Assembly (NCBI GenBank): GCA_016212935.1
Contig: JACRDE010000385.1
Location: 1-32,917, forward strand
Direction of reading: 5' to 3'
Length of the DNA stretch: 32,917 nt
Source of the DNA: Desulfomonile tiedjei
Lineage (GTDB): Bacteria > Desulfobacterota > Desulfomonilia > Desulfomonilales > Desulfomonilaceae
Shown here: positions 2,320 to 27,925 of the stretch, one piece after another
Numbering within the stretch: position 1 is the first letter of the stretch
How the letters are laid out: each line of letters opens with the position of its first letter
Translations under genes and position numbers: made by a program
Notes under the pieces: generated by a model
Told to the model about the DNA's origin: nothing
The model's database searches: none
The model's input: the letters and a program-made list of their open reading frames with translations, nothing else

Positions 2320-2991
2320 ATGAGCACGAACGCTTTCTTGGATTATGAACTGGTGACCCGTCGAGTGAAGGTTGGCAATGAATGGCAGACCAAGGTGTTC
2401 CCTGTGGTCGGTGGCCGACTGAGAATCGTACATGAGAGCAATGACCACCTGAGCATCGAAACTCAAATCGTCAAGCTGGAGTCCGACTTCGTGGTCGTTC
2501 GGGCTACCGTGGAAACAACCAAAGGCAAATTCAGCGGTACCGGCACTGCGTCGACCCAAAGAGATGCGAGGCTTGCCGATGCTCTGGTGGAATTGGCGGA
2601 GACTCGGGCGATTGCGAGGGCTCTTCGGTTTGGCGGCATCGGAAGCGAATACACCTCGGCAGAAGAGGTTTCTCATGTCGTGGCAGAACCTGAGCTCTCA
2701 ACGGGAGGAAACGAAAGCAAAGTGGGCAAACCCGTGCTTGAGCCGCAGGAGAGCGAGAACAAACAAGAAACAAAGCAACCGGTTCACCCCAAGAATGGTG
2801 GCAACGGCAACGGAGGTCGGGCCACTGGCGCTCAATGCAGAGCCTTGTATGCCCTTTCCAAAAAGGCAAAGATGTGTGACGAGGACCTGGACAGCTTACT
2901 CCGCCCGCTCAATTCCACCCGCTTCGAAGATCTCACCCTGTCCGATGCCAGCCGCTTGATTCAATATTTTCAAACCCAGATCGCCGCGTGA
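2320..2991 (+). CDS. Putative single-strand annealing protein (Rad52/Erf-like recombinase)
   Basis: A 223-residue protein. Residues 1-70 are a beta-rich section; residues 73-118 carry the signature GTGTASTQRDAR...ALVELAETRAIARAL...GSEYTSAEE, the helix and turn typical of phage and plasmid single-strand annealing proteins (compare the AET-x-A-I-x-R-A-L motif of Sak/Erf-type proteins). Residues 120-167 are a low-complexity polar linker rich in Gly, Asn and Glu. Residues 168-221 form a helical C-terminal module (ATGAQCRALYALSKKA, LTLSDASRLIQYF) of the kind common at the end of such recombinases, often binding a partner or ssDNA. An AAGAAGGAGGAG ribosome binding site precedes ATG 2320. The RecB/Cas4-like nuclease two genes downstream is the expected partner in a two-component exonuclease/annealase system. 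The exact subfamily is not settled. Confidence 0.6.
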   Translation: MSTNAFLDYELVTRRVKVGNEWQTKVFPVVGGRLRIVHESNDHLSIETQIVKLESDFVVVRATVETTKGKFSGTGTASTQRDARLADALVELAETRAIARALRFGGIGSEYTSAEEVSHVVAEPELSTGGNESKVGKPVLEPQESENKQETKQPVHPKNGGNGNGGRATGAQCRALYALSKKAKMCDEDLDSLLRPLNSTRFEDLTLSDASRLIQYFQTQIAA

Positions 2992-3061
2992 TGTTGCCCT
3001 TACCAATCTATCATCACTGTTCATAACGGGGCGAGTGGCCAAACTCTTCCGGGGGAGAAGT

Positions 3062-3199
3062 ATGTACAGGTTTACACGATTCCTTCGTCAACTATTCCAG
3101 GAAAGAAAACACTGGAGGAGAAGAAACCGCAAACTGTTCCGGCATTGTAGCCGGTTGACCTACCGGCCGGGTCTGCGCCGAAAAAGGAGAAGACGATGA
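3062..3199 (+). CDS. 45-residue Arg-rich basic peptide coupled to the nuclease gene
   Basis: Starts at ATG 3062 after a good ribosome binding site (GGGGGAGAAGT), and its TGA (3197-3199) overlaps the start of the nuclease gene as ATGA. The peptide starts MYRFTRFLRQLF and ends RPGLRRKRRRR; Arg and Lys together make up over 40% of it, with a few aromatics. It has no hydrophobic segment. Such a peptide could bind nucleic acid, or the frame could exist mainly to couple ribosomes to the downstream start, since the purine-rich AAAAAGGAGAAG that encodes its Arg-rich end is also the ribosome binding site of the nuclease gene. That dual role may explain part of the Arg bias, so the product is less certain than the frame. 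Confidence 0.45.
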   Translation: MYRFTRFLRQLFQERKHWRRRNRKLFRHCSRLTYRPGLRRKRRRR

Positions 3200-3972
3200 A
3201 CGACCAGGCACAAGAGAAGCCTCATCTCAGCTACAGCCAAATCAACACATACTGTACGTGTCCCTTGAAATACCGCTTCCACTACATCGACCGGATCGAG
3301 CCTCCCTTCACCGCAGCCCCTCTCGCTTTCGGGTCGGCCATTCATGAGGCAGTGGGAGCATTTTATCAGAGTTGTCTTGAAGGCGATCCTCTTTCGGCCG
3401 GTAACATTCATGACGTATACCGTCAAGCGTGGGAAAGCCATGCCAAGGAGCGACCGATTCGTTTCTCTAACGGTGATTCCGCTGAGAGCCTCACGGAAAA
3501 GGCAAAGCGGATGCTGGAGGTGTTCCACGCAGAATTCGATCCGGCTGTTCAGATCATCGGGATCGAGGAGCCCTTCGAGGTGGACCTCGGCAAACGCATG
3601 CCACCGCTGGTGGGTTGGATTGATGTGGTGGAACAGGCGCCGGAGGGCACCGTAACCGTAGCGGATCTGAAGACCGCATCAAAGCGTTACTCGGATAACA
3701 CCGTCCACGCCAACATGCAGCTCACCTGCTATTCACTGGGTGCACAGACGCTTGGCTTCAATGGGGACACTCGCTTTCGTTTGGACGTGCTCCTCAAGAC
3801 CCAGAATCCGGAGTTGATCCGGTACGAGACTACCCGAACCGATGCCAACCGCGACAGATTCCTGAAACTGGTGAAGAGCGTTTGGCAAGGCATCAAAAAG
3901 GAAGTCTTCTTCCCCAAAGCAGATTGGCAGTGCGGGCAATGTCCGTTTGCTGATCCGTGTGGGCAGTGGTAG
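3196..3972 (+). CDS. PD-(D/E)XK exonuclease, RecB/Cas4-like with probable Fe-S cluster
   Basis: A 258-residue RecB-family nuclease. Seen: an N-terminal S-Y-S-Q-I-N-T-Y-C-T-C-P segment (residues 12-23), the motif I helix G-S-A-I-H-E-A with the conserved His, then G-W-I-D-V-V followed by V-A-D-L-K-T-A (the Asp and Asp-x-Lys metal-binding residues), the Q-x3-Y helix (QLTCYS), and a C-terminal C-G-Q-C-P-F-A-D-P-C. One N-terminal Cys (C20 or C22) plus the three C-terminal Cys is the arrangement that holds a 4Fe-4S cluster in AddB and Cas4 proteins. The activity expected is 5'-3' or ssDNA exonuclease, feeding single strands to the annealing protein encoded upstream. Translation is coupled to the preceding Arg-rich peptide through ATGA. 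Confidence 0.8.
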   Translation: MNDQAQEKPHLSYSQINTYCTCPLKYRFHYIDRIEPPFTAAPLAFGSAIHEAVGAFYQSCLEGDPLSAGNIHDVYRQAWESHAKERPIRFSNGDSAESLTEKAKRMLEVFHAEFDPAVQIIGIEEPFEVDLGKRMPPLVGWIDVVEQAPEGTVTVADLKTASKRYSDNTVHANMQLTCYSLGAQTLGFNGDTRFRLDVLLKTQNPELIRYETTRTDANRDRFLKLVKSVWQGIKKEVFFPKADWQCGQCPFADPCGQW

Positions 3973-3981
3973 GAGGGCGAG

Positions 3982-4242
3982 ATGGCTACAAAAGCAAAAC
4001 CCGCTGCAACAGCGGAAGAGCCTGCCTCGGTTACGGTCGATAGACACATATCTTTGGATATGGAAAGAGGGAGCGTAGCCGTATCTCGCAACGGGCTCAC
4101 CCTTTCCGTGTCAGGCAAGAACGTGCAGTTGCGCAAGCAATCCCCTCTCAATCTGTCGTTCGATTCCGGCGAAGTCGAGTATGATGATGGAGAGATCCAG
4201 GTGAAGGCAGAGGGAGATGCGATCAAGCTGCAACTGGATTGA
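3982..4242 (+). CDS. Hypothetical 86-residue protein
   Basis: A small soluble protein with an Ala/Thr/Glu-rich N-terminus (about 20 residues) and a compact beta-rich body with alternating hydrophobics (for example VTVDRHISLDM, SLNLSF-like strands, EIQVKAEGDAIKLQLD). It starts nine bases after the nuclease stop with GGAGGGCGAG as ribosome binding site, so it is in the same transcript. It is not recognised as any family. Size, acidity and position would suit a small DNA-mimic, chaperone or ssDNA-associated protein, but nothing visible decides between these. A strong hairpin follows at 4263-4297. Confidence 0.65.
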   Translation: MATKAKPAATAEEPASVTVDRHISLDMERGSVAVSRNGLTLSVSGKNVQLRKQSPLNLSFDSGEVEYDDGEIQVKAEGDAIKLQLD

Positions 4243-4262
4243 TTCATCACTGTTTCATCACG

Positions 4263-4297
4263 AGCCCGGCTGATCTTGGGATTAGTCGGGCTTTTTC
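4263..4297 (+). terminator. Intrinsic terminator inside the gene cluster
   Basis: Arms 4263-4275 and 4280-4292 pair over 13 positions, with two G-U wobbles if read as RNA, around a TTGG tetraloop, followed directly by TTTT. This is a textbook intrinsic terminator on the plus strand. It sits between the 86-aa gene and the methyltransferase gene, splitting the cluster into two transcripts or acting as a partial attenuator. The next gene begins only 16 bases later with its ribosome binding site GGGAGGACACC. Confidence 0.8.
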
Positions 4298-4312
4298 ATT
4301 GGGAGGACACCG

Positions 4313-5326
4313 ATGCGAATAGCAGGTCGAATGAAGATGGGTTATTACCCGACTCCTGCAAGAGTCGTGGATTACATAAAGAAATGGCTTTCTTTTCCCC
4401 CCGCGCCTTTCACAGCGTTGGACCCGTGCTGCGGCGAAGGCATCGCTTTGGAACATCTCGTGCGAGGCAGTGAAGCCATTACCTACGGTGTGGAGCTGGA
4501 TGAGCAACGAGCGGACGCAGCCCAAGATCGCATTCAGAACGTTCTGAAGTGCGGAATCGGGGAGACACGGATCGCTCACCAGTCCTATTCGCTTCTGTTT
4601 CTCAATCCGCCCTACGATGAAGCGACCCTTGAAGAGGATGCGGACATCAAAACCGAGCGACAGGAGAAGGCGTTTCTCCGTATGACGGTACCGTATTTGG
4701 TTCCCGGTGGGGTGATAATCTACATCATTCCTCAGAAACGCCTAAACAGGGGCATTGCGCGTCTATTGGCTTCTCGCTTTGAGCGGGTCAATGTCTTCCG
4801 TTTTCCCGATCCCGAGTACGACGACTTCCAACAGGTGGTGGTGTTCGGCGTACGCAAGTCAGTCAATTCCTTGGATGATGGCGTGGCTCTGAAGCTTCAG
4901 AACGTTCCGAACCGCAAGCTGAAGCCCTTGCCGGAGACTGACACGGCACAGTACTCCGTTCCCCCTGCCGGACCTTTGAAGCTGTTCCGCTCGACGGTTA
5001 TCGACCCTGAAGAACTGGCGAAGCAGATGGCACAGTCTCCTTTGTGGCGTAGGTTCGATGCAATGACCACCCGAAGCGAGTTGAAATTGCCCCGCCCGCC
5101 TCTGCCTTTGCACTCGGGACACTTGGGTCTGCTGTTGGCGGCGGGAAAGCTCGACGGAGTGGTGGGTGAAGGCCCGGATCGCCATGTGGTGAAAGGCAAA
5201 GTAACCAAGGTCGTTTCCCGGGTGGAGGAGTACAAAGGAGACGTATTGGAGCAGCGGGAGCTGGATCGGTACGTGGTCTCCATCAAGATTATGAACCGTA
5301 ACGGCGAAATCCGTGAGTTGACTTGA
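4313..5326 (+). CDS. DUF6094-type SAM-dependent DNA adenine methyltransferase
   Basis: A 337-residue protein. The opening RIAGRMKMGYYPTP is typical of DUF6094 proteins; GYYPTP is also the start motif seen in many N6-adenine methyltransferases. Motif I (SAM binding) is D-P-C-C-G-E-G at residues 37-43, and the catalytic N-P-P-Y is at 98-101. Residues 140-190 continue the Rossmann-like fold. The C-terminal half (about 200-337) is mixed and may recognise DNA or a partner. No restriction enzyme gene is adjacent, so it is likely an orphan methyltransferase that marks the element's DNA or protects it from restriction. It shares an operon with the 195-aa gene (stop TGA 5324-5326, next ATG 5338) and with the helicase. 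Methylation specificity cannot be read from the sequence. Confidence 0.75.
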   Translation: MRIAGRMKMGYYPTPARVVDYIKKWLSFPPAPFTALDPCCGEGIALEHLVRGSEAITYGVELDEQRADAAQDRIQNVLKCGIGETRIAHQSYSLLFLNPPYDEATLEEDADIKTERQEKAFLRMTVPYLVPGGVIIYIIPQKRLNRGIARLLASRFERVNVFRFPDPEYDDFQQVVVFGVRKSVNSLDDGVALKLQNVPNRKLKPLPETDTAQYSVPPAGPLKLFRSTVIDPEELAKQMAQSPLWRRFDAMTTRSELKLPRPPLPLHSGHLGLLLAAGKLDGVVGEGPDRHVVKGKVTKVVSRVEEYKGDVLEQRELDRYVVSIKIMNRNGEIRELT

Positions 5327-5337
5327 GAGGGGGAGCC

Positions 5338-5925
5338 ATGTTGGACCATGTCGTGTTTGAGGAGCCCTGGAAAGGCATCAAGGTGTCGGCTTACACCGAC
5401 CAATATGCCTACGACCCGGAGGACAATTCACTGGTGTTCATTTCCTTGGCCGGTACCGAGCAGGCGGTAAAGGCCATATCATCCGCGATTATCGGGGGAC
5501 AAACCGTGAGCATCATGGGTGCAGACAATTCGGAAATCCTGCTGGACGGGCACGCTGCAACCCATTTCCGAGTCTTGTCCACAAAGCTTTCCGGCGGCGC
5601 TGTGCATCAGCTGGTGGCGGACAGCAGGTTCTTCGGGAGTGACGAGCCCGGAGCCTATCTCGTGGTCATCCCTCAACAAGAGGATGTATCCAAGGTTGTC
5701 TATCGCCAAGTCCTTACCCACTTGGCTTCTCCGCTACTTCCCGAGTGGGTTCAATGGATTTGCGGGCAGCTCAAAGAGGTGGACCGGATGCGGGAGATGG
5801 AAGGGACCTTGAGAGTTGCGCAGGTCTCGGCAAACGAGGCCACCGTGGATCAACTGGTCTCGCAAGGATTACGTACGGGACAAATTCGTCTCGAAGGAGG
5901 AGGAACTCATGCTCGATTCCATTAG
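5338..5925 (+). CDS. Conserved-context protein of unknown function
   Basis: A 195-residue soluble protein not recognised as a family. It opens MLDHVVFEEPWKGIKVSAY and looks alpha/beta throughout; the C-terminal 60 residues are more helical (QLKEVDRMREMEGTLRVAQ). There is no signal peptide, membrane helix or metal motif. ATG 5338 is preferred because GAGAGGGGGAGCC precedes it at good distance; an in-frame TTG at 5323 overlaps the upstream stop but would start inside that ribosome binding site. The last 17 bases overlap the helicase start. Placement between a methyltransferase and a helicase suggests it works with one of them, perhaps as a loader or adaptor. Confidence 0.65.
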   Translation: MLDHVVFEEPWKGIKVSAYTDQYAYDPEDNSLVFISLAGTEQAVKAISSAIIGGQTVSIMGADNSEILLDGHAATHFRVLSTKLSGGAVHQLVADSRFFGSDEPGAYLVVIPQQEDVSKVVYRQVLTHLASPLLPEWVQWICGQLKEVDRMREMEGTLRVAQVSANEATVDQLVSQGLRTGQIRLEGGGTHARFH

Positions 5926-7963
5926 CGATGTGAACGGATATTTGCAGCAATTCGGAGGGGCTTTGGCTAACAAGATTCAGGTGGAGGCCGAGCCTCTTTT
6001 CAAACCCGGTAACCCATGGCACCCACGCATGAGCAAGCTTCTGCGAAAACCATTTCAAGCCCAGGCCGATGCGATTCAGGGCGCTGTCGAGACGTTGCGC
6101 AAACACAACCATGTGATGTGCATCGGAGAGATGGGCGTGGGCAAGACGCTCATAGGAGCCGCTGTGCCGTACATCATGGAAAACGGGCATCCTCCGCGTG
6201 TCTTGGTCATGTGCCCCGGTCATCTCACCCGCAAGTGGGTGCGAGAGGTGAGAGAAACCGTGCCGGGCGCTGATGCAACCATCATCACGCGTTTGTCTGA
6301 CGTGTCGGCCATTGACCATTATGAGCCACATGGGGGCCTGCGGTACTACGTGGTCAGTAAAGAGCGGGCAAAGCTGTCCTATGCGTGGCGGCCCGCTTTT
6401 AATCTTCGTCGCGGGGTTCCCGTATGCCCGGACTGTGGCTCGACTGTTGTAGATGGAGATGGCGTAGAGGTCAGCGCTGAAGCTCTACAGCATCGTAAGG
6501 CTCGCTGCGGGTCCTGTGGGGCCGCATTGTGGCAGGCGGACAATACTCGGTTCCGCCGATTCTCCATTGCGGATTACGTCAAACGCCACTTGAAGGGTTA
6601 TTTTGATTTCTTCATCTGCGACGAAGTCCATGAGATGAAAGGAGGAGACACCGCTCAAGGCAACGCCTTCGGGACGCTGGCCAGTGCGTGCAAGAGGACC
6701 ATTGCGCTCACGGGAACTTTGTTGGGCGGGTACGCCAGCCACATGTTCCATCTCCAGTACCGGATGAGCCCACAGGCCATGAACGCGGACGGATTTTCCT
6801 ACGGCAACCGCATGAACTTCGTCAATCGGTACGGAGTGCTCGAAAAGATCACTCGCTACTATCCCGGTGATGACAACATCTGCTCCAAGGGCAAGAAGGG
6901 TACTACAGTCACTCGGGAGAAGCCCGGCGTGAGTCCTGCGATCTTCTCGAATCATTTGATGGGCTCCACGGTGTTCCTCCATTTGCAGGACATTGCGGTG
7001 GATCTGCCGGGTCTCACAGAGGACGTTGTTCCGGTTGCGATGGAAGACGACCTTTCCGTTGCCTACAAGGACCTTGAGCACAGGATAGGCTCTGAGATGA
7101 AACGACTCCTGGTCCAAGGATCTCGGCGGCTCCTCGGCGCGTATCTCAATACCCTGCTCTGCTATCCCGACCGGCCTTTTCACAGTGAGCCCCTGGTCGA
7201 TCCGGCCAATGGAAACGTCATCGCTGAGCCACCCCAGTTACCCTCGGATCGCGTGTACCCCAAAGAGGCCGAGCTTCTCAAGATCGTTCATGGAGAGATT
7301 TCTCAGAGCCGACGGAGTTTTGTGTACTGCACCTTCACCAACACCAAGGACGTGACGGGCCGTCTCAAAGAGATCGTCGCCCGCCAAGGGTTCTCTGTCG
7401 AGATACTCAGGTCGTCGGTAAAGCCCGAGCAGCGTGAGGAATGGCTGCGGCAGAAAGTGACGGAAGATGTGCAGGTGGTGATCGGTAACCCCATGCTGGT
7501 TCAAACCGGCTTGGACCTGTTGGATTTTCCCACGATAATCTTCTATCAGACGGGCTACTCTGTTTTTACATTGAGGCAGGCGTCCCGGAGATCGTGGAGG
7601 ATAGGCCAGAAGGAGCCTGTACACATTCACTATCTTCACTACAAAGATACCATGCAGGAACGGGCACTCGAACTGGTCGGCAAGAAGCTCTCAGCTTCGT
7701 TGGCCATTGAGGGCAAGCTCACCGATGATGGACTTGCATCCATGTGCGCCGGTGACGACATGACGTTGATGCTGGCCCGAGCCCTTGTCGAAGGCAGGCA
7801 TATCCAGGGCGCTGAGTCGGTGTGGCGAAAGCTCAACTGCCCCAAACAGACCCCCACCCCGGGGAACGTCATCCCACTTCGCCGGAACTGGTCTTTGGAG
7901 CTGATGGAAGAGCGGTCGGGTACGCTCTGGGATGATTTTTCGGTCATCCAGGCGCTCGGCTAA
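5909..7963 (+). CDS. SNF2/DEAH-like superfamily 2 helicase with zinc-finger insert
   Basis: A 684-residue SF2 enzyme. Walker A is G-E-M-G-V-G-K-T at residues 73-80, motif Ia near V-L-V-M-C-P-G-H, Walker B D-E-V-H at 238-241, and motif III T-G-T-L-L-G-G at about 268-274. Between Ia and II lies an insert with C-P-D-C (C173, C176) and C-G-S-C (C200, C203), a probable zinc ribbon. The C-terminal RecA lobe has Q-T-G-L-D-L (about 530) and the SNF2-type motif VI R-Q-A-S-R-R-S-W-R-I-G-Q. SNF2-like enzymes translocate on dsDNA; in a phage- or plasmid-type recombination operon this one may remodel replication or recombination intermediates. Start ATG 5909 follows GAAGGAGGAGGAAC and overlaps the upstream gene by 17 bases, so translation is probably coupled. 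Confidence 0.8.
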   Translation: MLDSISDVNGYLQQFGGALANKIQVEAEPLFKPGNPWHPRMSKLLRKPFQAQADAIQGAVETLRKHNHVMCIGEMGVGKTLIGAAVPYIMENGHPPRVLVMCPGHLTRKWVREVRETVPGADATIITRLSDVSAIDHYEPHGGLRYYVVSKERAKLSYAWRPAFNLRRGVPVCPDCGSTVVDGDGVEVSAEALQHRKARCGSCGAALWQADNTRFRRFSIADYVKRHLKGYFDFFICDEVHEMKGGDTAQGNAFGTLASACKRTIALTGTLLGGYASHMFHLQYRMSPQAMNADGFSYGNRMNFVNRYGVLEKITRYYPGDDNICSKGKKGTTVTREKPGVSPAIFSNHLMGSTVFLHLQDIAVDLPGLTEDVVPVAMEDDLSVAYKDLEHRIGSEMKRLLVQGSRRLLGAYLNTLLCYPDRPFHSEPLVDPANGNVIAEPPQLPSDRVYPKEAELLKIVHGEISQSRRSFVYCTFTNTKDVTGRLKEIVARQGFSVEILRSSVKPEQREEWLRQKVTEDVQVVIGNPMLVQTGLDLLDFPTIIFYQTGYSVFTLRQASRRSWRIGQKEPVHIHYLHYKDTMQERALELVGKKLSASLAIEGKLTDDGLASMCAGDDMTLMLARALVEGRHIQGAESVWRKLNCPKQTPTPGNVIPLRRNWSLELMEERSGTLWDDFSVIQALG

Positions 7964-9337: not shown

Positions 9338-10024
9338 TCATCCACCGCTCACTGAATTTGGAAGAGAATTACGTAACAAAGGCAAGAGATATTCCAAAAC
9401 ATCCTCAGGAATCTTTGCGCTACCATGATTTGTCAGATGGATAGGCGCAAGCTTGCTATCAAATTTAGCCTTAAGTTGCAGCTTTTCCACAACATATCTA
9501 CGACCTTTGACGAAATGGTCTAGTGCGATCCTGACATCTTTGTCACCAGTGACCAGTACTTTTGCACTCACCCCTGTCTCAAGCTCAAGTCCAGCAATCT
9601 GCATCGAATCAATAGTGACCTGTTTTCTCAACTCAGCTTGGAACGCTACAGCCCAATCTAGCAAATTGACTCGAAGAGGACTAATCGAAAGAGAGAAACT
9701 ACTGAGTTCAAGAAGTTTACTGACATAGGCCTGGAAGCTACGAGGTGCATCCCAAAGCTCAATGTTTGGAAAATCCTCAAATAGATTGAAGTCCACTTGT
9801 CGATAGCTCACCCGGTCAAAAATCTCTTCGTTACCGAAGGGGTCTGTAACTGTTTCCTGGTAAGTGATTTTTTCAATGTAGCGAGCTTCAACAGAGGTAT
9901 CTCGCACTCGCTCAACGACAAAGCCGTCATAGCTGTCTTCAGTGAAGGCATTGGCCTTCATTTTGGAAGCCAGTATTCTAAGGGGTACCGGCCACTGAGC
10001 GCTTAACCACCGGATACGCTTCAC
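9338..10024 (-). CDS. Unknown protein, last gene of the hsd-linked cassette
   Basis: A 228-residue protein starting at GTG 10024 with a good ribosome binding site (GGGGAGAAAATCT), 12 bases after the stop of the upstream gene. It is beta-rich, with strand-like segments such as GFVVERVRDTSVEARYIEKI and SSFSLSISPLRVNLL. There is no membrane helix, signal peptide or catalytic motif that can be named. Its tail (IPEDVLEYLLPLLRN) is helical. It is the fourth gene in a run that continues directly from hsdS, so it is probably expressed with the restriction system. The A/T-rich codon use resembles its two upstream neighbours more than hsdR/M/S, which suggests that these genes travelled together. Confidence 0.65.
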   Translation of the reverse strand: MKRIRWLSAQWPVPLRILASKMKANAFTEDSYDGFVVERVRDTSVEARYIEKITYQETVTDPFGNEEIFDRVSYRQVDFNLFEDFPNIELWDAPRSFQAYVSKLLELSSFSLSISPLRVNLLDWAVAFQAELRKQVTIDSMQIAGLELETGVSAKVLVTGDKDVRIALDHFVKGRRYVVEKLQLKAKFDSKLAPIHLTNHGSAKIPEDVLEYLLPLLRNSLPNSVSGG

Positions 10025-10036
10025 AGATTTTCTCCC

Positions 10037-11158
10037 CTAGTCTGTGTGATCTGCAGCCACTTCCTCTACCTTATTGCGAATCTCAGCAAGGGTCCTGTGG
10101 GCTGTCTGCTCGATCAAAGAGAGAAGTTGTTGTTTGTGCTCAGGAGAAATTGGTCTGAGGGTCTTCGTGTATTCGCGATTTTGGAAGTGAAAAGCACCAC
10201 GCACAATGTACTTGAACCCCCTACCTGCGTCCGGCTCTTCGAAGCCAGCCTCATATTCTACGATGAAGTAAGGAGAGATTGTCTGCTTGGATCTCCAAAT
10301 GATTGAAGTGATGAAGAAGCCTTTGGCTCGTAGCTGCTGATACTCAGTTGAAGCAAGCAAACTCTGCCCCTTGAATGCAACGTTCTTGACCAAGGCCAGC
10401 ATTTCCTGCCCTGCTTGCTCGGCATCTTGGTCATCCTCAAGATCAAGCTCATTTTCATCTACTTCCTTGATGTTTGACTCAACTTTGACACTGGTTACAT
10501 CGTCCAGCTTGAAATCTGGAAGTTTGCTGATCAATGAAGTGAAGAACTCCGTCCGCTGCTCGGAGTTGGTGAATTCCGTGAGTTCAATCAAATCAGCTGG
10601 AATGTCGGTCTTCTTCTTTCCGTCAAGGCGCTCCTTGAGATTGTGGACGATCTCCTTTGCCTTGGCATTGGCTGGCATTCGTACAATAGTTTTGTCCCCT
10701 TCGATGATGAATTCAATGCCTGCTTGTTTAGGGCGCCGTTGAACAAGTCGGTTTTTAGAATAGTCAATCTCCGAGTACTGCACTGTCACAAGATACTTGT
10801 TGGTACCATCCTGGTGTGTGATTACTTTTTCATCGCCGGGTGCTTGCTCCCTATAATCATCTGAAACTTCTTTAATTTCATCAATGGACAGTTGGGTGTT
10901 GAGGACAATAGACGTAAGTTTTTCCGCTCTGCCGGAATGCTCACGCTGGTCAAGAATGAGGTTTAAGTCATGATAGTCCTGGGGCAACAGGGAAAGATTA
11001 TTTGCAAGCGTTTCCCGTGAATCTCTGGGCGAGTAGAATATGCCTCTGTCTTTTGCTAATTCGAGCATGACAGATTCCGTAATTCGCAACTTAGACGCCA
11101 TTAGAACGTCAAAAATTTCTTGGTCTGTCGCACAGTAAAGTGGATTGCTTTTAGACAT
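10037..11158 (-). CDS. Unknown two-domain protein with acidic linker, hsd-linked cassette
   Basis: A 373-residue protein. Residues 1-45 are helical and could be a winged-helix or SAP-like DNA-binding start (TDQEIFDVLMASKLRITES). A central region with beta strands follows, then an acidic linker (about 227-255, ending DENELDLEDDQDAEQAGQE), then a C-terminal alpha/beta region. It has no Walker motif or clear nuclease motif. The preferred start ATG 11158 overlaps the upstream stop by eight bases; an ATG six codons earlier is possible. Overlap and spacing suggest it works in stoichiometric complex with the 326-aa upstream protein, as in two-component defence systems that pair a nuclease with a recognition subunit. 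That role is inferred. Confidence 0.65.
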   Translation of the reverse strand: MSKSNPLYCATDQEIFDVLMASKLRITESVMLELAKDRGIFYSPRDSRETLANNLSLLPQDYHDLNLILDQREHSGRAEKLTSIVLNTQLSIDEIKEVSDDYREQAPGDEKVITHQDGTNKYLVTVQYSEIDYSKNRLVQRRPKQAGIEFIIEGDKTIVRMPANAKAKEIVHNLKERLDGKKKTDIPADLIELTEFTNSEQRTEFFTSLISKLPDFKLDDVTSVKVESNIKEVDENELDLEDDQDAEQAGQEMLALVKNVAFKGQSLLASTEYQQLRAKGFFITSIIWRSKQTISPYFIVEYEAGFEEPDAGRGFKYIVRGAFHFQNREYTKTLRPISPEHKQQLLSLIEQTAHRTLAEIRNKVEEVAADHTD

Positions 11159-12131
11159 TCTCCATTCCAATATCAAGCTCAGAGAATCTTGTTTGCACTT
11201 GATTTATTTGGCCGTATTTGATGGAATCGAGCAGTTTCTTGATATCCGTCGCTCCGTCGCACTGATCGATGTACTGGTCTATCGCCTTTCCAAAAAAGGC
11301 AGGCGCATCACGATGGGCGTCAAGAGTCTTGATTTGAACATCTGTATCGTCCACCAGGACCTGGTAATGCATAAGATAGTCAATCAAGTAAAGGAACTCC
11401 TCTACTGATTCGCCTCTCCGTCTGTAATAGATGACAACTCCCCTACGATTCCGGCTCTTGGGGTCAGCGTAGGAAAGAATGATCCATGGGCCAGTCAACA
11501 TCTCCAATGTGGCCGCCTTGGCATGTTCCAACTGGACCTTTTTCTTGCGTACAAGATGCGGATAGAAGAAACGACAGTGCTCACGGGCAGGCAACTCTCC
11601 AGTACCGCGCATCTGAACTATTTCGTAGCGCACATTGTTCAGCCAGAAGATATCTTTAGGACCGAAGACTACTATTTTAGATTTCTTTGGAATGTCCAAT
11701 GTCTCATGTTTCACTGCATCTAAAAGGCCGCTGAAGTCTTTATCGTGTTCACCGTCATGATTATAGACAAAAAGAAGACCACATATTCCTGGGGAAACAT
11801 CGTTGTGAATGTACTTGTTTCTCCATTCGTCGCTTTTTTCGGCACAAGTCAAGGCTCGTGCAAGGCCTTCAATTGCGGCACAAACCTTGCCGGTGCTGAT
11901 AGTTCCCCTTGCATAACTCTTCAGATCACAATTGATATAGGATCTGGCAAGAGTATAGGGCTCGTCATAGTAAAAAACGATATCCGATGGATGTGTCTTG
12001 GCATTGTGCCGTTCTTTTTCCTCACACGGCCAATTCCAGTTCCAGGGGCCAACCTGCTCCCATAAGAATTCGGAAAAAAGTTCTTTTGACAGCTTTTCTG
12101 CCATCTTGGCAATATTCGATGTTTCTCCCAT
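11151..12131 (-). CDS. Putative PD-(D/E)XK-type nuclease, hsd-linked cassette
   Basis: A 326-residue protein. After an amphipathic N-terminal helix and a Trp-rich stretch (EQVGPWNWNWPCEEKER), residues 46-75 read T-H-P-S-D-I-V-F-Y-Y-D, then about 12 residues later I-N-C-D-L-K-S-Y-A. The spacing of D50 to D69-x-K71 fits a PD-(D/E)XK metal-dependent nuclease core, with E38/E39 a possible upstream acidic helper. The remaining 250 residues hold alternating strands and helices (SKIVVFGPKDIFWL, GPWIILSYAD, RGVVIYYRRR) without a recognised domain. It starts three codons' worth of bases after the 88-aa gene (ATG 12131, ribosome binding site AGGAAG) and overlaps the next gene by eight bases. Nuclease identity is inferred from the motif alone. 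Confidence 0.6.
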   Translation of the reverse strand: MGETSNIAKMAEKLSKELFSEFLWEQVGPWNWNWPCEEKERHNAKTHPSDIVFYYDEPYTLARSYINCDLKSYARGTISTGKVCAAIEGLARALTCAEKSDEWRNKYIHNDVSPGICGLLFVYNHDGEHDKDFSGLLDAVKHETLDIPKKSKIVVFGPKDIFWLNNVRYEIVQMRGTGELPAREHCRFFYPHLVRKKKVQLEHAKAATLEMLTGPWIILSYADPKSRNRRGVVIYYRRRGESVEEFLYLIDYLMHYQVLVDDTDVQIKTLDAHRDAPAFFGKAIDQYIDQCDGATDIKKLLDSIKYGQINQVQTRFSELDIGMENV

Positions 12132-12133
12132 AT

Positions 12134-12400
12134 TCAGCTTCCTGATTCAATAGAATTTGACTTCCGAACTAGAATCAAAATCTGGCTGTCTTTATGCTCA
12201 GGGCGCATTTCGAGAGGATCACTTTCATTGTCTATGGTCGGACCGCCACTGAATACTTTGCCGATTACATCCGGCCGGTGCTGGTCGTCCAATGTATTCA
12301 TAATGGCTGTCTTGTTTGAGGGCAGCGATGATTTTCTCCATTCCTGCGAGTTGGTCCGGTTTGGCTTCGTGATCAAATTGGGAAATTCGTGAATTGGCAT
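12134..12400 (-). CDS. Small unknown protein immediately after hsdS
   Basis: An 88-residue polar protein (begins MPIHEFPNLITKPNRT) with a low-complexity first half rich in Asn, Thr and Ser and a short strand-like IGKVFSGG and DSQILILVRK. It has no membrane segment. It starts three bases after the hsdS stop and ends two bases before the nuclease-like gene, so it is tightly embedded between the specificity subunit and the cassette. It could be a regulator, an antitoxin-like or adaptor protein, or the degenerate remnant of a larger gene. No family is recognised and no strong ribosome binding site is present; coupling to hsdS translation is the likely route. Confidence 0.5.
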   Translation of the reverse strand: MPIHEFPNLITKPNRTNSQEWRKSSLPSNKTAIMNTLDDQHRPDVIGKVFSGGPTIDNESDPLEMRPEHKDSQILILVRKSNSIESGS

Positions 12401-12403
12401 GGG

Positions 12404-14050
12404 TTAAACCTGCGCCGTAAGTTCAGCAACAATGGCGTCCATGAGATCTGTCTCCATAACCCGAGAGGCTACAAGCTGGGCTTCCAACTGGTCAACCAAT
12501 GACATCAGCTCATTGATTTTGGAAACTATCCGCCGTTGTTCGGCGAGGGGTGGAAATGGAATCGGGCAATTGCGGACTTGGCGCATATTGATCGATGCGA
12601 GATTCGTGGTTTGTTTCGACGCAGACTCAAAGTAGCCCCGGCCATCAGGGGAGTTGAAATAATGCTCAAACCAAAACGGCGTAATCTCGGGGGACCGCAT
12701 TCGCGCACGAAATATATGGTTCTGGTGAAGGCAGACGGGAATTTCGGCCCTCCAGATAGCTGCCCGACCGACCTTATCCCAATCGCCACCCTCGGTCATC
12801 AGAAGGTCGTTCTCACGGAGTGCATAACGATCAATCTCATTTTCGGCGATTGACACATTCTTGATCACTGAGAGGTCGATCTCGCCGCGTTTTACATTGG
12901 CCACTCGGAGATACGGCAAGGTCACTGTCTTTCGCTGTGCGAGCTTGCGACCGAGCGTGACGCCGCCAGCGACAAGAGCAACATCCTCAAATCGAACTCG
13001 CGTCCATGACGGTGGAAGCGAGTCATAATCGGCGTCATCTGCATTTAAAAAGGCAACGGTGCTTTTCAACCCAAGCCGTGAGAGACACTCCTCCGCCGAT
13101 TCGTCGTTTGGGTCTTGCGGAACAAGCTTTCCCTGGACGGCAAGAGCGAGAATGGTCTTACGGAGGTCGGCTGGCTCGATTGTATAGGAGTCATGGAAGA
13201 GGAACTTGAGATTCGCTGAAGTAGGCGCTTCGCCGAAATGGGTGAGTGCGGCTCGGGATAGTGCCGTGTGTTGCTTATCGCGCCCATGTTGCTGCGCTCC
13301 TAGCTGATCACACAACCTCATCAACTCATCCACTTTTGCTACAATTCGGTGTTGCTCGGCGAGGGGTGGGATCGGAGCGAGTGTCGACCGCAGATTGTTC
13401 TGTGTAATTTGGTTGATCGTGGTTGTGTTCACTTCGCCGATCATTTGCCGAAACAACGGAGAGCAAATGAAGTGGTATAGATATTGATTCACCTCGCTTC
13501 GAAAGATTGCCATAAAGGCTCCAAAAGCTGTCGGCTCGTTGAGGTCCTGAATCATTGCAACTTTCCCGACCAGCGCTCGGCTTCCATTCCTCGCGCAGAT
13601 TAGCAAGTCACCATCTTGCACCATGAGGCTCTGTTTGGGATCAAGTTTCACTCGCACGAGGTCGGAGAAATCGAGTTTGCCCTTCTGTATGTTACTTGAG
13701 CGCAGAACCGGAATCCCTACGACGGATACGTCCCCTGGCGAATAGGTCAGGCCTATATTAGTTTCGCCAATATTACCAAGACGTTCCCATGCCCATCCAG
13801 AGGGTAGTCCGAACGGAATCTCGTCTGGCGTGATCGCTGGCATGGGCTGTGATTTTCGTCGCTGATAATTGTCAAGGCCCGTTCGGTTCGTTAGCCTGGC
13901 TAGCAAAGTATCCGCCGACTCGTCATTTGGGTCTTGCTCAACGAGCCTTCCGCGAACCGCCAGTTGTAGCACCAACTCCCGCATCTTCTGCATCGCTTTA
14001 GGCCAATCGGCGAACTGGTCAAACTTCTCAAAGAACGTCTCAATCTTCAT
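12404..14050 (-). CDS. hsdS: Type I restriction enzyme specificity subunit (S)
   Basis: A 548-residue HsdS with the usual two-half design. Each half has a target recognition domain plus a conserved helical region. Central and C-terminal spacers show as PIPPLAEQHRIVAKV-D-E-L-M (from about 227) and PPLAEQRRIVSKINELM (about 500), and a second internal repeat LAVRGRLVEQDPNDESA (about residue 30) recurs as LAVQGKLVPQDPNDESA (about 303). The first TRD spans about 70-225 and the second about 335-495; they differ in sequence, so the target is expected to be bipartite and asymmetric. The target itself cannot be read. It overlaps hsdM by 11 bases with GGAAG as ribosome binding site. The subunit appears intact, without frameshift. 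Confidence 0.93.
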   Translation of the reverse strand: MKIETFFEKFDQFADWPKAMQKMRELVLQLAVRGRLVEQDPNDESADTLLARLTNRTGLDNYQRRKSQPMPAITPDEIPFGLPSGWAWERLGNIGETNIGLTYSPGDVSVVGIPVLRSSNIQKGKLDFSDLVRVKLDPKQSLMVQDGDLLICARNGSRALVGKVAMIQDLNEPTAFGAFMAIFRSEVNQYLYHFICSPLFRQMIGEVNTTTINQITQNNLRSTLAPIPPLAEQHRIVAKVDELMRLCDQLGAQQHGRDKQHTALSRAALTHFGEAPTSANLKFLFHDSYTIEPADLRKTILALAVQGKLVPQDPNDESAEECLSRLGLKSTVAFLNADDADYDSLPPSWTRVRFEDVALVAGGVTLGRKLAQRKTVTLPYLRVANVKRGEIDLSVIKNVSIAENEIDRYALRENDLLMTEGGDWDKVGRAAIWRAEIPVCLHQNHIFRARMRSPEITPFWFEHYFNSPDGRGYFESASKQTTNLASINMRQVRNCPIPFPPLAEQRRIVSKINELMSLVDQLEAQLVASRVMETDLMDAIVAELTAQV

Positions 14051-15506
14051 TGACGCTTCCGTTTTCAGCGGTTAAAGCGCGATAGAACTCCTGCTTAAGT
14101 GTGGCTCGGGTCTCCGCTATTTGCCTGAGAAGTTTCTCGTATCTGGGCAGCAGATGGTCGACATCGCCAGGGCCGTCATCATTCTTGTATGGGTTTTTAA
14201 AATCGAGGTTGTAGTTGCCTGCCTTGATCTGGTCGATAGAGACACGCCAGGCCTGCTCGTTTTCCACCCGGTTGTTCCACCATGTCTTTTCCGGTTCGAA
14301 CTCCTGTATGCGGATAGGTTTGCCTTTATTGTAGCTCTTGGCCCCCCGTGGATACGGATGCTCGTAATACCAAGTCTCTGTCGTAGGCTGATCCTTGGTG
14401 AAGAAGAGGAGGTTGGTGCGGATGCTGGTATACGGATTGAAAACGCCGTTGGGCAGGCGGACGACGGTGTGCAGATTGCAGTCGGTTAACAGAGCTTCCT
14501 TAATGCGCGTTTTAACCCCTTCACCGAAGAGAGTACCATCTGGTAGCACGAGGCCTGCTCGGCCACCCGGCTTTAGTATCTTCATGAGGAGTACAAGGAA
14601 TAGGTCGGCAGTCTCACGGGTGCGGAATTCTGCGGGGAAGTTCGCCTCAATGCCGTCCTCCTCCATGCCCCCGAAAGGCGGGTTTGTGACGATAACGTCC
14701 ACACGTTCCTTGGGCGACCAATCACGCAGAGGACGAGCGAGGGTATTGTCATGCCGGACATTCGAAGGAACATCGATACCGTGGAGCAACATATTGGTCA
14801 TGCACAGGATGTGGGGCAAATGCTTCTTTTCGATGCCTTGAAAACTTTCCTGTATGTAATGCTCGTCGTCCTCCGTTCTTGCCTGTTTACGCAGATGTTC
14901 GATTGCACAGACCAGAAAGCCTCCAGTGCCACATGCAGGGTCGAGAATGGTTTCTCGTTTTGCAAGACTTGGATTAACCTGATCGACAATGAACTGAGTC
15001 ACAGCGCGTGGAGTATAAAATTCGCCTGCATTACCGGCGGACTGAAGATCCTTGAGGATTTTCTCGTAGATGTCGCCGAACATGTGACGGTCATTTGAGG
15101 AGTTGAAGTCGACGCCATTGATTTTATTGATGACCTGCCTCATTAGAGTGCCGTTCTTCATGTAATTGTTGGCATCTTCAAAGGACATACGGATCAGGCC
15201 GCTGATTTTGTTCGCTCTCCCGTTTAGCGACTTCAGTTTGGGTAACAGAGTGTTGTTTACGAAGTCCAGAAGCGCTTCCCCCGTGATGCCTTCTTCGTCC
15301 CCAGCCCACGCAGACCAGGATAGATTCTGTGGAATAGGCGACCTGTATTCGTCGTGAAGCAGTTCGAGTTCTTTTTCTCGGTCGTCGAAGATCTTAAGAA
15401 AAAACATCCAGCCGAGTTGTTCAAGGCGCTGCGCATCACCGTAGGTTCCGGCATCTTTGCGCATGATATCCTGAATGGATTTGACTATGGTGGAAATATT
15501 GGACAT
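14040..15506 (-). CDS. hsdM: Type I restriction-modification methyltransferase subunit (M)
   Basis: A 488-residue N6-adenine methyltransferase. The N-terminal helical domain (residues 1-150) contains the typical QRLEQLGWMFFLKIFDDRE and GDIYEKILKDLQSAGNAGEF segments. Motif I for SAM is D-P-A-C-G-T-G-G-F at 189-197, and catalytic motif IV N-P-P-F is at 275-278. It pairs with HsdS to methylate adenine in the target, and with HsdR for restriction. The start ATG 15506 lies three bases after the hsdR stop, so the genes form one operon in the order R-M-S. Length and motifs are normal and the gene looks functional. Confidence 0.95.
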   Translation of the reverse strand: MSNISTIVKSIQDIMRKDAGTYGDAQRLEQLGWMFFLKIFDDREKELELLHDEYRSPIPQNLSWSAWAGDEEGITGEALLDFVNNTLLPKLKSLNGRANKISGLIRMSFEDANNYMKNGTLMRQVINKINGVDFNSSNDRHMFGDIYEKILKDLQSAGNAGEFYTPRAVTQFIVDQVNPSLAKRETILDPACGTGGFLVCAIEHLRKQARTEDDEHYIQESFQGIEKKHLPHILCMTNMLLHGIDVPSNVRHDNTLARPLRDWSPKERVDVIVTNPPFGGMEEDGIEANFPAEFRTRETADLFLVLLMKILKPGGRAGLVLPDGTLFGEGVKTRIKEALLTDCNLHTVVRLPNGVFNPYTSIRTNLLFFTKDQPTTETWYYEHPYPRGAKSYNKGKPIRIQEFEPEKTWWNNRVENEQAWRVSIDQIKAGNYNLDFKNPYKNDDGPGDVDHLLPRYEKLLRQIAETRATLKQEFYRALTAENGSVNED

Positions 15507-15509
15507 GGC

Positions 15510-17876
15510 TTAAGCCGCTTCCCGGTAAAGTTGATTTTCGAGTTCGCGTATGACTGCAAGGTAGTTTTGCTTCCCGCCGAAGAGTTTTACGATTTCGACA
15601 GGCGTACCGAAAGCGGTGAGTGGATCAACTTTGAGGATTTCGAGCGACTCAACGCTCTTAATACCGCTGTCGGCGTACTTCTGTAACAAGGCTTGGATTA
15701 CAGCCCGAGCCTTTTCGCCATAGGTCGTGAACAGATTGCGCTTCTTAACACGGTCAGCCCGTTCACGACGGGTCAGAGGAGGTTGGTCGAATGCGACATG
15801 GCAGACAAGATCGAAGGCATCGTAATCCCTCCCCACCTGCTCAGCCAGTTCCTCAAGAAACACTCCTTGATTTCCGAGTTCTTCTATGATGACGTGCTTG
15901 CGATCTGTATCATTCCAAGCGTTCAAAAAGGCATCCAGTGATGTATACATCCTGCGAATGGTATTGCGTGTATAGTCTCTAAGGGATTCAGTAATCAGAT
16001 TGCCGTTGGCGTCGAGGAATTGAACACGCTCGCTGATGATCGTAACTTCCACATCATCGACATAATACTTGACCTGCCGCCCGCTGACGTCAGTCGGTTG
16101 CGACATGAAAGGTCTGTCGATTCCATCGAGGGGCGATTCTTGACCTGATGTGCCTGTAGTTTCATCGGGGGGGACCGGCGACTCGTTGGAGTTCGGTTCG
16201 TAAACCTGAACAGGATCACCATCGAAGCTAGGGTCCGCGAACAGTGTTGTGGCCCGCCTAAAATCCATAATAGTAAAGAAGAACTTGTTGTATTCCTCAT
16301 TGATGCGGGTCCCACGGCCGATAATTTGCTTAAACTCCGTCATGGAATTTATGCGTTTGTCGAGGACGATCAAACGGCAGGTCTGTGCGTCGACTCCCGT
16401 CGACATCAGTTGCGAGGTCGTAGCTATGACCGGGAATGTGGACTCTGGATCAATAAAATTGTCCAGCTGCGCCTTGCCCTCATCGCTGTCGCCGGTAATA
16501 CGCATCACGTACTTGTTATTTGCAGCGGCAAGGTCTGGATTGGCATTCACGAGGGCTTGTCGCATCCGCTCAGCATGATCAATATTCTCACAAAAGATGA
16601 TTGTTTTGGCGAAACGGTCTATAGATTTGAGGAACTCAGTTATCTTTGCGGCGACGAGTTCAGTCCGTTTTTCCAGGATCAAGTTCCGGTCGAAGTCCAT
16701 CTCGTTGTACTCACGGTCTTCGATAAGCTGGCCGTATTTGTCCGTCTTTCCCATTGTGGGACGCCATCCTTCGAGATCTTTGTCGAGACCGATGCGGATG
16801 ACCTTGTACGGTGCTAGGAAACCGTCAGAAATGCCTTGCCTGAGTGAATAGGTATAGATCGGATCGCCGAAATACTCGATGTTGGAAACATCTCTGGTTT
16901 CCTTAGGGGTTGCTGTCAAACCGATCTGGGTTGCAGATGAAAAGTACTTCAGAACTTTGCGCCAAGCCGCATCGTCTGCAGCGCTGCCTCGATGACACTC
17001 ATCCACAACAACGAGGTCGAAAAAATCAGGTGTAAACTGCTTATAGATATTCTGTTCTTCTTCGGTGCCGGTAACAGCCTGATACAGAGAAAGATAGATT
17101 TCAAAGGCTTTATCAACGGTTCTATTCGTGATCTTGGTCATCGCCTGACCGAACGGCTTAAAATCATTGGTCTTGGTCTGGTCGGCGAGGATGTTGCGAT
17201 CCACGAGGAACAGTATGCGTTTCTTAGCGCCGGATTTCCACAACCGCCATATAATCTGGAACGCTGTGTACGTCTTTCCGGTGCCTGTGGCCATGACCAA
17301 TAGTAAGCGGTTCTCACCTCGGGCTATGGCATCGACGGTTCGGTTTATGGCAACGATTTGGTAATAACGCGGTGTTTTTCTGGAGTCTCCATAGTAGTAG
17401 TCCTGGGTTGCCACCGTTTCCTGTGCGCCTGTGTAATGTTTTGCTATGCAATAACGTGCCCAGAGTTCATCGGGTGTCGGAAATTGGTCGAGCGGGATCT
17501 CCCTTTCCACGGTGCCGCTAGTGCCGGTTCGGTCGTGTTCCAGGAACGCATCGCCGTTAGAACTGTAGGCAAAAGGCACATCGAGTATCTCAGCGTATTC
17601 AAGCGCTTGCGGCATTCCATCGCCGACCGAGTGTCTGTTGTCCTTGGCTTCCACAACCGCTATAGGGATATTCGGCTTGTAGAACAGGATGTAATCCGCC
17701 TTTTTCGCTTCGCCTCGGGTGACGGTCTTGCCCAGCACAATGACGCGGCCCCTAGTGAAGTAGTGCTCCTCAAGCACCTGGGTCATCACATTCCACTTGG
17801 TTCCGTTCTCCCCGACAATTGCCGGTGTGATGAATTTCGTTCGGATGTCCGCTTCCGTTAAAGCCTTCTTATTCAT
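15510..17876 (-). CDS. hsdR: Type I restriction enzyme motor and endonuclease subunit (R)
   Basis: A 788-residue HsdR from ATG 17876. The N-terminal nuclease domain has D61 (K-K-A-D-Y-I-L-F) and V-V-E-A-K with E76 and K78, the PD-(D/E)XK core that cuts DNA. The SF2 motor has Walker A A-T-G-T-G-K-T at 196-202, Walker B V-D-E-C-H (DECH at 292-295), and motif VI with I-I-G-R-G-T-R. The C-terminal 200 residues are helical and bind the methyltransferase core. This is the EcoAI-like, shorter HsdR type. The start is ambiguous: ATG 17876 matches the usual family beginning (MNKKALTEADI), but an in-frame GTG at 17918 has the better ribosome binding site (AAGGAAAC) and would add 14 residues. No frameshift or missing catalytic residue is seen. 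Confidence 0.92.
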   Translation of the reverse strand: MNKKALTEADIRTKFITPAIVGENGTKWNVMTQVLEEHYFTRGRVIVLGKTVTRGEAKKADYILFYKPNIPIAVVEAKDNRHSVGDGMPQALEYAEILDVPFAYSSNGDAFLEHDRTGTSGTVEREIPLDQFPTPDELWARYCIAKHYTGAQETVATQDYYYGDSRKTPRYYQIVAINRTVDAIARGENRLLLVMATGTGKTYTAFQIIWRLWKSGAKKRILFLVDRNILADQTKTNDFKPFGQAMTKITNRTVDKAFEIYLSLYQAVTGTEEEQNIYKQFTPDFFDLVVVDECHRGSAADDAAWRKVLKYFSSATQIGLTATPKETRDVSNIEYFGDPIYTYSLRQGISDGFLAPYKVIRIGLDKDLEGWRPTMGKTDKYGQLIEDREYNEMDFDRNLILEKRTELVAAKITEFLKSIDRFAKTIIFCENIDHAERMRQALVNANPDLAAANNKYVMRITGDSDEGKAQLDNFIDPESTFPVIATTSQLMSTGVDAQTCRLIVLDKRINSMTEFKQIIGRGTRINEEYNKFFFTIMDFRRATTLFADPSFDGDPVQVYEPNSNESPVPPDETTGTSGQESPLDGIDRPFMSQPTDVSGRQVKYYVDDVEVTIISERVQFLDANGNLITESLRDYTRNTIRRMYTSLDAFLNAWNDTDRKHVIIEELGNQGVFLEELAEQVGRDYDAFDLVCHVAFDQPPLTRRERADRVKKRNLFTTYGEKARAVIQALLQKYADSGIKSVESLEILKVDPLTAFGTPVEIVKLFGGKQNYLAVIRELENQLYREAA

Positions 17877-18417
17877 TGGTCTCTGACCATAGTCCGTCTT
17901 ATCACACGGCGGACTCACGCTGTTTCCTTCGGCACAAGATGTTCAAGGGTCTTCTTGTATTCCGAAATTGTTCGGCGATCTTGTGAAAATAAGAACCTGA
18001 TTATCTAGCTGCTGAGCTTATCGCATCACACCGCTCTGGGTCAAGAAAAACGAGGTGTTTGGCTGATTTAAGCCTCTTGGGGTCCAGGGTCGAAAGGATG
18101 GTCGAAATTCTTTGAGCTGTGAGAAACTGCTTCGATAAGCTGTTTCGGTGCCCATTCGGAGTGGGAATCAAACCATCGGCAAAAGGTCTCATGAATGCTG
18201 GACCAGGTTTCTCCTTCCGCGACCTGTAAGTTAGAGGCCTGCTCTCTCAATCAGGGGGGCCAAGGATGGGATGCGCGATCTTAGCCAGGCCCGGGACCCT
18301 CATCGTGTGTGGTTTTCCGCTGTCCAAAATACCACCGTCTCTCAGAATCGATCTGACTCAGCCTTAGCCGATTTCCTTCAAGCAAAGCGCCTTGGAATCG
18401 GGGTGTGAGTGGGTCCT
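17877..18417. other. Upstream region of the hsd operon, no gene seen
   Basis: About 540 bases without a supported gene; short minus-strand frames here lack ribosome binding sites and family features. The part nearest hsdR holds a nested inverted repeat described separately. The rest may include the hsd promoter, although no convincing -35/-10 pair was found, and decayed sequence that leads into the 112-bp repeat. Confidence 0.45.
17933..17985 (-). promoter_or_regulatory. Nested inverted repeats upstream of hsdR
   Basis: CACAAGAT (17933-17940) and ATCTTGTG (17978-17985) are perfect eight-base inverted arms; inside them CCGAA and TTCGG (17962-17975) form a second small dyad. They lie about 60-110 bases upstream of the preferred hsdR start, where an operator would be expected. 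No regulator gene of the C-protein type is adjacent. The function is inferred. Confidence 0.3.
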
Positions 18418-22467: not shown

Positions 22468-22472
22468 GTGTG

Positions 22473-23177
22473 ATGCTCACTGCAAGCCAGACCAAGAAAC
22501 AGATTGACGAACTCTTGAAAAAGCTAATCGAGTTTGGCCTATCAACTGATCAGAATTTTCCATTCGAAAGACACGGACCTGCCGGTTCGGTAGAGATTAC
22601 CTTCCCCTCGGCGGAACGATTCTCTGTTGCCATGAAAAACATCTCGTATGTAGAAATCTACCGACGCTTAACTAAGGAAAGGGCTTATCTACTCAAAATG
22701 ATTGACGGTGCAATAATCCAAATAATGTACGCTTTCAGTGGAGGTCGCCTGGAACGTCATCGGCTAGCATTTTTCCCTTCACCCGATCTGGAGGAATTCC
22801 AAAACAATCCAGATGTCTACTTGCAAGACGAGATCTACGCCGACATAGTTGCCAAGAATATTGTTCCGTTCCCTTTACGCTTCGACTTTGATATAAGAGG
22901 AGAAATCCACAAAGACCTGGTACATCCAAGATCCCACCTCACTTTAGGGCAGTACGAAAATTGCAGGATTCCTGTGAGTGCACCGCTTATCCCTTTTCAT
23001 TTCTTCGAATTCATTCTTCGCAATTTCTACCATACCGCTCACCACACCTGTGGTGACGCATTGCCTCGATATACTGATACATTCGATGAGTCAATCACGT
23101 ATAACGAACGCAGAGTGGTTCACGTTCAAACTCCGGTACCGGATTCAGCAGCAGTAGCAGTAGGGATGCGCGATTAG
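22473..23177 (+). CDS. DUF2290-like protein, partner of the upstream helicase
   Basis: A 234-residue protein. The most characteristic segment is H-P-R-S-H-L-T-L-G-Q-Y-E-N-C-R-I-P (about residues 149-165), followed by P-F-H-F-F-E-F-I-L-R-N-F-Y, which fits the DUF2290 family from memory. The function of that family is unknown; the conserved His and Cys could bind metal or be catalytic. The gene begins within a few bases of the helicase stop (GTG 22470 or ATG 22473), so the two are one translational unit. Its tail (VPDSAAVAVGMRD) is disordered. Pairing with a UvrD-like helicase in a defence-rich region suggests a two-gene defence module, which is inference. Confidence 0.6.
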   Translation: MLTASQTKKQIDELLKKLIEFGLSTDQNFPFERHGPAGSVEITFPSAERFSVAMKNISYVEIYRRLTKERAYLLKMIDGAIIQIMYAFSGGRLERHRLAFFPSPDLEEFQNNPDVYLQDEIYADIVAKNIVPFPLRFDFDIRGEIHKDLVHPRSHLTLGQYENCRIPVSAPLIPFHFFEFILRNFYHTAHHTCGDALPRYTDTFDESITYNERRVVHVQTPVPDSAAVAVGMRD

Positions 23178-23252: not shown

Positions 23253-24194
23253 ATGTCTTTGAAAAATGCAAGCCTGTGGATGGATGAAGTCCCCGTGTTT
23301 CATGAGTTGCCTTCTGACCAGGCCATTCGCAAGTTACAACAATTCGGATACCTTAAGTCACAGGAGCCTGGTAAGACGCTAACGCGAGCGGGAATGAGCG
23401 CCAAGAGTGTCATCGATCAGCTGTCCTTTTGGAAGAAGAAGTCTTGGGCACACGACGGGCATGCTTTTGGCTATATCCCGCTGCTTCGGCACGATTCCCA
23501 AAAACCGGTACAAATAATGCATGTCGGGGCAATCCAACCCGACGAGTCATTGAAAGGTGCCAGAGTTACTATCCGACTCAACAGATTACGGGTCGCTAGC
23601 TATCCAGGCAGAGGGAGGCACAATATTCTCTTTGATTTCCATGCGGAAAACCACCTTAAAGGAAAAAAAGAGAATGTACATTTCAACCAAGTCTATAAAG
23701 TACAGGAAGGGGAGAGCGCAGGGATCATTGGCTACCCCATTTTTATAGGACTCAATGTGGGCCGAGAAGGCCTCCTATTCGATGGTTGCACCGTAAACGT
23801 CAAGAACGACCAAGACCAGGCCATCGTAAAGTTTCTGGATTCAGACACATTCAAGGCTGGACTCAAGCTTGTCAAGACAGCCCAACCTGCTATAGCCCCC
23901 TTAACAGACATTACCGTTGGGCTCACCAAGATGCTAGCCCACAGAAGCGAAAACCTCGGTGTTCAGAAATTCTCCATGGGCCTCAGCTTCGATCAGGTAC
24001 CGGGGGGTGCCAGGTTGGCTGAGGGGGCGTACGTGGTAGTCCAGATACCGGAGGAGGATCAGGTGGTCTGGGACTGGAAGGAATGGATCTACGAACCACT
24101 GTTGGGCAGCATCGTAAGGAAAGAAGAACCGACTAAGCTGATTCCATTTAACTATGTCATGTTTGGTATCAGCCGATACACTGACTCTGACTGA
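23253..24194 (+). CDS. Unknown 313-residue protein upstream of the IetAS-like pair
   Basis: Starts at ATG 23253 with ribosome binding site AAGGGAG. The N-terminal 70 residues are helical with a helix-turn-helix-like rhythm (DQAIRKLQQFGYLKSQE, TLTRAGMSAKSVIDQLSF); the central region (about 90-190) is beta-rich (ARVTIRLNRLRVASYPGRG, HNILFDFHAENH), and the C-terminus returns to mixed structure with VVVQIPEEDQ and a Trp-rich V-W-D-W-K-E-W. It has no membrane helix, Walker or nuclease motif. It could be a sensor or regulator of either neighbouring unit: 75 bases separate it from the DUF2290-like gene and 215 from the AAA+ gene, and the latter appears to have its own promoter. No family is recognised. 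Confidence 0.65.
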   Translation: MSLKNASLWMDEVPVFHELPSDQAIRKLQQFGYLKSQEPGKTLTRAGMSAKSVIDQLSFWKKKSWAHDGHAFGYIPLLRHDSQKPVQIMHVGAIQPDESLKGARVTIRLNRLRVASYPGRGRHNILFDFHAENHLKGKKENVHFNQVYKVQEGESAGIIGYPIFIGLNVGREGLLFDGCTVNVKNDQDQAIVKFLDSDTFKAGLKLVKTAQPAIAPLTDITVGLTKMLAHRSENLGVQKFSMGLSFDQVPGGARLAEGAYVVVQIPEEDQVVWDWKEWIYEPLLGSIVRKEEPTKLIPFNYVMFGISRYTDSD

Positions 24195-25522: not shown

Positions 25523-25534
25523 AGGAGGAGACCG

Positions 25535-27832: not shown

Positions 27833-27925
27833 GGTCCTTACGTCCAGAACTGAGATCTGCCACGGAGACTTATTTACCCCTGATTCGATCACGGAAAGAC
27901 TCGGATGCATAAACGGAGGGTAACA

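Follow-up and report, generated by a model that had tools for sequence, protein, structure and literature searches.

Three genes beside a type I restriction-modification operon match the Rst_3HP defence system and include a predicted PD-(D/E)xK nuclease

Three genes located downstream of a type I restriction-modification (RM) operon in a draft genome of Desulfomonile tiedjei (5.6 Mb, 647 contigs) almost certainly form a complete, diverged Rst_3HP cassette (hereafter 3HP), a known but mechanistically unexplained system that lies beside the RM genes by chance or through the clustering typical of defence islands. The explanation that we consider best overall, and reasonably probable as a whole, is that of an independent 3HP system next to an unrelated EcoAI-type RM operon, acting by a clamp-nuclease mechanism. 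A predicted PD-(D/E)xK nuclease, a partner predicted to fold like RdgC and distant homology to GAPS4 give 3HP a mechanism that can be tested. The relevant genes of the window, i.e., the whole 32,917-nt stretch of DNA analysed, are as follows:

15510..17918, minus strand: hsdR of the EcoAI/FtnUII family (NF046051, 1188 bits, over the curated cut-off), neighbour of 3HP
14040..15506, minus strand: hsdM, type I RM methyltransferase (Pfam and PADLOC), neighbour of 3HP
12404..14050, minus strand: hsdS, type I RM specificity subunit (Pfam and PADLOC), neighbour lying outside the 3HP unit
12134..12400, minus strand: ORF88, doubtful gene within the spacer of 272 nt that separates hsdS from Hp1
11151..12131, minus strand: Hp1, 326 aa (PADLOC Hp1, 3e-64; phrog_7059, 3.5e-109)
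10037..11158, minus strand: Hp2, 373 aa (PADLOC Hp2, 5.2e-39; phrog_6531, 2.6e-90)
9338..10024, minus strand: Hp3, 228 aa (PADLOC Hp3, 2e-17; phrog_5850, 5.1e-37)

The original prediction had described a complete RM operon followed by four tightly coupled genes, which were read either as a second defence system or as an add-on that changes the RM complex. Its coordinates and spacings were correct: 3' of hsdS, on the same minus strand, lie ORFs of 88, 326, 373 and 228 aa with spacings of 3, 2, -8 and 12. The operon is indeed complete, with hsdR, hsdM and hsdS all identified on the minus strand, and no standard hsd accessory gene was found among the four ORFs, none of which matched Pfam over its cut-offs. 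The reading as a second defence system was right, the PADLOC matches to Hp1, Hp2 and Hp3 identifying that system as Rst_3HP; the three homologues are adjacent, on one strand and in the order Hp1-Hp2-Hp3. A homologous triplet in a Vibrio phage record was labelled Rst_3HP__Hp1/Hp2/Hp3 by its depositors. The window copy has the same three genes as Rst_3HP, likewise tightly spaced, on one strand and in that order, and Hp1 and Hp2 align near full length; on the other hand, its Hp1 is only about 36% identical to the E. coli P2-type Hp1, and the cassette follows hsdS in a defence island and does not occupy a P2-like prophage hotspot. We take the name Rst_3HP to denote the triplet tested by Rousset and colleagues in 2022, which fits both the 'HP' of their figure legend and the Rst_ naming. 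In that study, the E. coli triplet, tested alone, protects against P1, and against P1 only within the phage panel, its proteins being described with "no clear predicted domain" and the figure legend reading 'HP, hypothetical protein' (Rousset et al. 2022, PMC9122126). According to the authors of DefenseFinder, Rst_3HP is located mostly on prophages (PMC9090908).

Hp1, Hp2 and Hp3 are real genes, linked far beyond chance. A scan of viral contigs gave 80 3HP loci, 5 of which were cut off by the locus end, and the three genes stood together in the same order in all 75 that were long enough, contrary to the possibility, raised with the original prediction, that the homologues never co-occur; since many of the 80 loci are closely related, these 75 do not equal 75 independent events. 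The gaps between the genes in the viral-contig loci range from -104 to 14 nt, one IS insertion excepted: at locus L087, an IS3-type transposase pair (L087:10037-11205) interrupts the end of Hp2. A further 12 complete triplets were found on plasmids, in phages (including P2-like phages and two filamentous Pseudomonas phages) and in genomes. Of 5426 complete E. coli genomes, 18 carry a near copy of the E. coli triplet and, among 395 genomes of the phylum to which the window belongs, 3HP was detected only in the window's own genome. The two filamentous (Tubulavirales) Pseudomonas phages (L010 and L012) carry a complete 3HP, a large cargo for a genome of about 13 kb.

The fourth ORF, ORF88, is probably not a gene, and the four tightly coupled genes originally described are thereby reduced to a unit of three. 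ORF88 begins right past the hsdS stop codon, in the hsdS frame. Searches of Pfam, PADLOC, NCBIfam and PHROGs left it unmatched, the plasmid records searched yielded no homologue, and matches across 60 related genomes stayed at chance level; an alternative frame of the same stretch was likewise without a homologue. Rfam and tRNA searches gave no match. A ribosome-binding site was absent 5' of ORF88, and a plausible one, AGGAAG, precedes Hp1. ORF88 has a codon score of 0.125, and a different reading frame across it reaches 0.148. When the spacer was shuffled 2000 times, 47 shuffles contained an open frame as long as this one; openness alone would thus arise by chance with a probability of about 2%, which makes a chance origin of the frame unlikely. 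If ORF88 is discounted, 272 nt separate hsdS from Hp1, and, given the doubtful status of ORF88, a tight coupling of 3HP to the RM operon is not supported.

Hp1 is a predicted PD-(D/E)xK nuclease with a putative Cap4/HamA-like core. Residues E3, H47-P48, D50 and D69-L70-K71-S72 are invariant in 45/45 homologues and, as read from the alignment, include the PD-(D/E)xK pattern (E3, D50, D69-x-K71); in one genome, the RefSeq label of the E. coli Hp1 homologue is 'PD-(D/E)XK nuclease domain-containing protein'. In Foldseek, the AF2 model of Hp1 (pLDDT 89.3) was matched weakly and in part by HamA and Cap4 (prob 0.7-0.9, E about 0.01-0.02); viral PD-(D/E)xK and RPB5 proteins gave lesser matches, and there was no strong full-length structural match. 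Matches of the model to acetyl-CoA carboxylase were discarded, with an rmsd of 13-18 A. At the sequence level, none of Hp1, Hp2 and Hp3 had a match among solved structures. By the partial matches of the model, the PD-(D/E)xK core of HamA (Hachiman) and Cap4 (CBASS) resembles part of Hp1, whereas 3HP has no HamB helicase partner, no SAVED sensor domain and no cyclase. Near the nuclease motif, C36, H42, H47 and C96 are invariant in the 45 homologues, a Cys/His set that could bind metal.

For Hp3, the AF2 model (pLDDT 95.8) leads us to propose with high confidence an RdgC-fold protein and, as a possibility, a DNA clamp. The best Foldseek match of the model was E. coli RdgC (E 4.9e-7, prob 1.00), followed by CENP-L/Iml3, which we take to have an RdgC-like fold as well. 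RdgC is a ring-shaped DNA clamp. The predicted fold of Hp3 is that of RdgC (PDB 2OWL, 2OWY), although RdgC has 303 aa against the 228 aa of Hp3 and the two share no detectable sequence homology; hhalign of Hp3 against six RdgC sequences found none (probability 0.28 per cent). Sequence profiles do not join the two proteins, so it is the fold alone that speaks for the likeness. One phage record labels an Hp3 'RdgC-like exonuclease', and the resemblance is therefore not first seen here. A profile comparison of Hp2 with Hp3 gave no support for a relationship between them.

The original hint at GAPS4-type systems was a good one, because Hp1 and Hp2 are, by profile comparison, distant homologues of GapS4a and GapS4b, under the thresholds for membership. 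The GapS4a profile matches 13 of the 45 Hp1 family members (best 4.9e-12) and the GapS4b profile 3 of 42 Hp2 homologues (best 5.7e-6). In the window, Hp1 matches GapS4a at 1.3e-6 with 27.9 bits, the curated cut-off being 270 bits, and Hp2 has no match to GapS4b. A GapS4a search of the 395 genomes gave no match, but the controls were equally silent, which makes this search uninformative.

Taken together, the Hp1 motif, the predicted Hp3 fold and the GapS4 homology speak for a complex that sits on DNA and has a nuclease as its effector, and we infer its formation, its trigger and the DNA target of 3HP along the following lines: (i) Hp3, with its RdgC-like predicted fold, would clamp double-stranded DNA, alone or with Hp2; (ii) Hp2 would couple the Hp3 clamp to Hp1, or load Hp1; (iii) Hp1, as a PD-(D/E)xK nuclease, would cut the DNA of the invader, or DNA in general and so halt the cell; and (iv) the trigger would be DNA in a state specific to phages, for example an intermediate of replication or recombination. 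This arrangement of clamp (Hp3), coupler (Hp2) and nuclease (Hp1) is put forward tentatively, as slightly less than an even prospect. An alternative rationale is that the three genes are a GAPS4 variant with an added subunit, working as GAPS4 does; the GapS4a and GapS4b matches across the Hp1 and Hp2 families argue for it, yet Hp1 of the window falls far short of the curated cut-off, the window Hp2 goes unmatched and a third gene, with the RdgC fold in 3HP, is present every time, which leaves this variant doubtful. We are equally hesitant about a broader proposal, in which 3HP and GAPS4 would be branches of one PD-(D/E)xK nuclease defence family, the 3HP branch being steered by an RdgC-fold clamp; if true, a recombination-type clamp would have been repurposed as a sensor of phage DNA intermediates. 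Somewhat less probable again is that the Hp1 nuclease aborts infection by degrading RNA or DNA of the host, with Hp3 merely a structural or inhibitory partner, as the partial structural likeness of Hp1 to HamA and to the effector nuclease Cap4 might suggest; the predicted RdgC fold of Hp3, however, points to DNA binding.

The cassette is very probably a system of its own, independent of the RM operon. HsdR, HsdM and HsdS were sought at E <= 1e-3 in the flanks (at most 8-12 kb, as far as the contig reaches) of 92 external 3HP loci, comprising the 80 viral-contig loci and the 12 others, and were found in none (0/92), so that the triplet stands away from hsd genes throughout this set and the recurrence beside other hsdS genes that the original prediction had proposed to look for did not appear. 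Conversely, five plasmid EcoAI-type RM operons stop at hsdS, with different, unrelated genes next in each. These two results tell against the add-on reading, in which the cassette would functionally extend the RM operon: it would be transcribed together with the hsd genes from their promoter, and its proteins would act on the RM complex or in concert with it, for instance by cutting when a phage blocks or evades RM. Such an extension would fit the strand shared by 3HP and hsd, the minus-strand interval from hsdS to Hp1 being free of terminator-like or promoter-like sites, and the 267-nt open frame that spans it. GC content, however, falls from 0.51-0.53 across the hsd genes to 0.45-0.46 across the 3HP genes, a step that fits separate acquisition, and in E. 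coli the published protection was obtained with the three genes by themselves (Rousset et al. 2022, PMC9122126). We therefore hold the extension to be highly improbable and the independent system to be the better reading; since 3HP normally stands alone, its place beside the RM genes is ordinary defence-island stacking.

The window is a defence island, in which unrelated systems are expected side by side. Its other systems and genes are these:

20311-23177, plus strand: complete Helicase-DUF2290 system (PADLOC helicase, E=0; DUF2290, 1.9e-49), 2.4 kb from hsdR
23253-24194: gene of unknown function, 313 aa, directly upstream of the IetA/IetS pair
24410-27832, plus strand: Ietas defence pair, IetA (AAA ATPase) and IetS (subtilase) (PADLOC)
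27905-28747: gene of unknown function, 280 aa, directly downstream of the IetA/IetS pair
2320-7963, plus strand, and 28995-30650, minus strand: phage-like module with a PD-(D/E)xK exonuclease (PDDEXK_1, 5e-36), a DUF6094 methyltransferase, a helicase and a family A DNA polymerase

The Helicase-DUF2290 system, like the E. coli triplet, was among those examined by Rousset et al. (2022), who were the first to test it. The phage-like replication and recombination genes that the window also carries suggest that the defence island rides on a mobile element.
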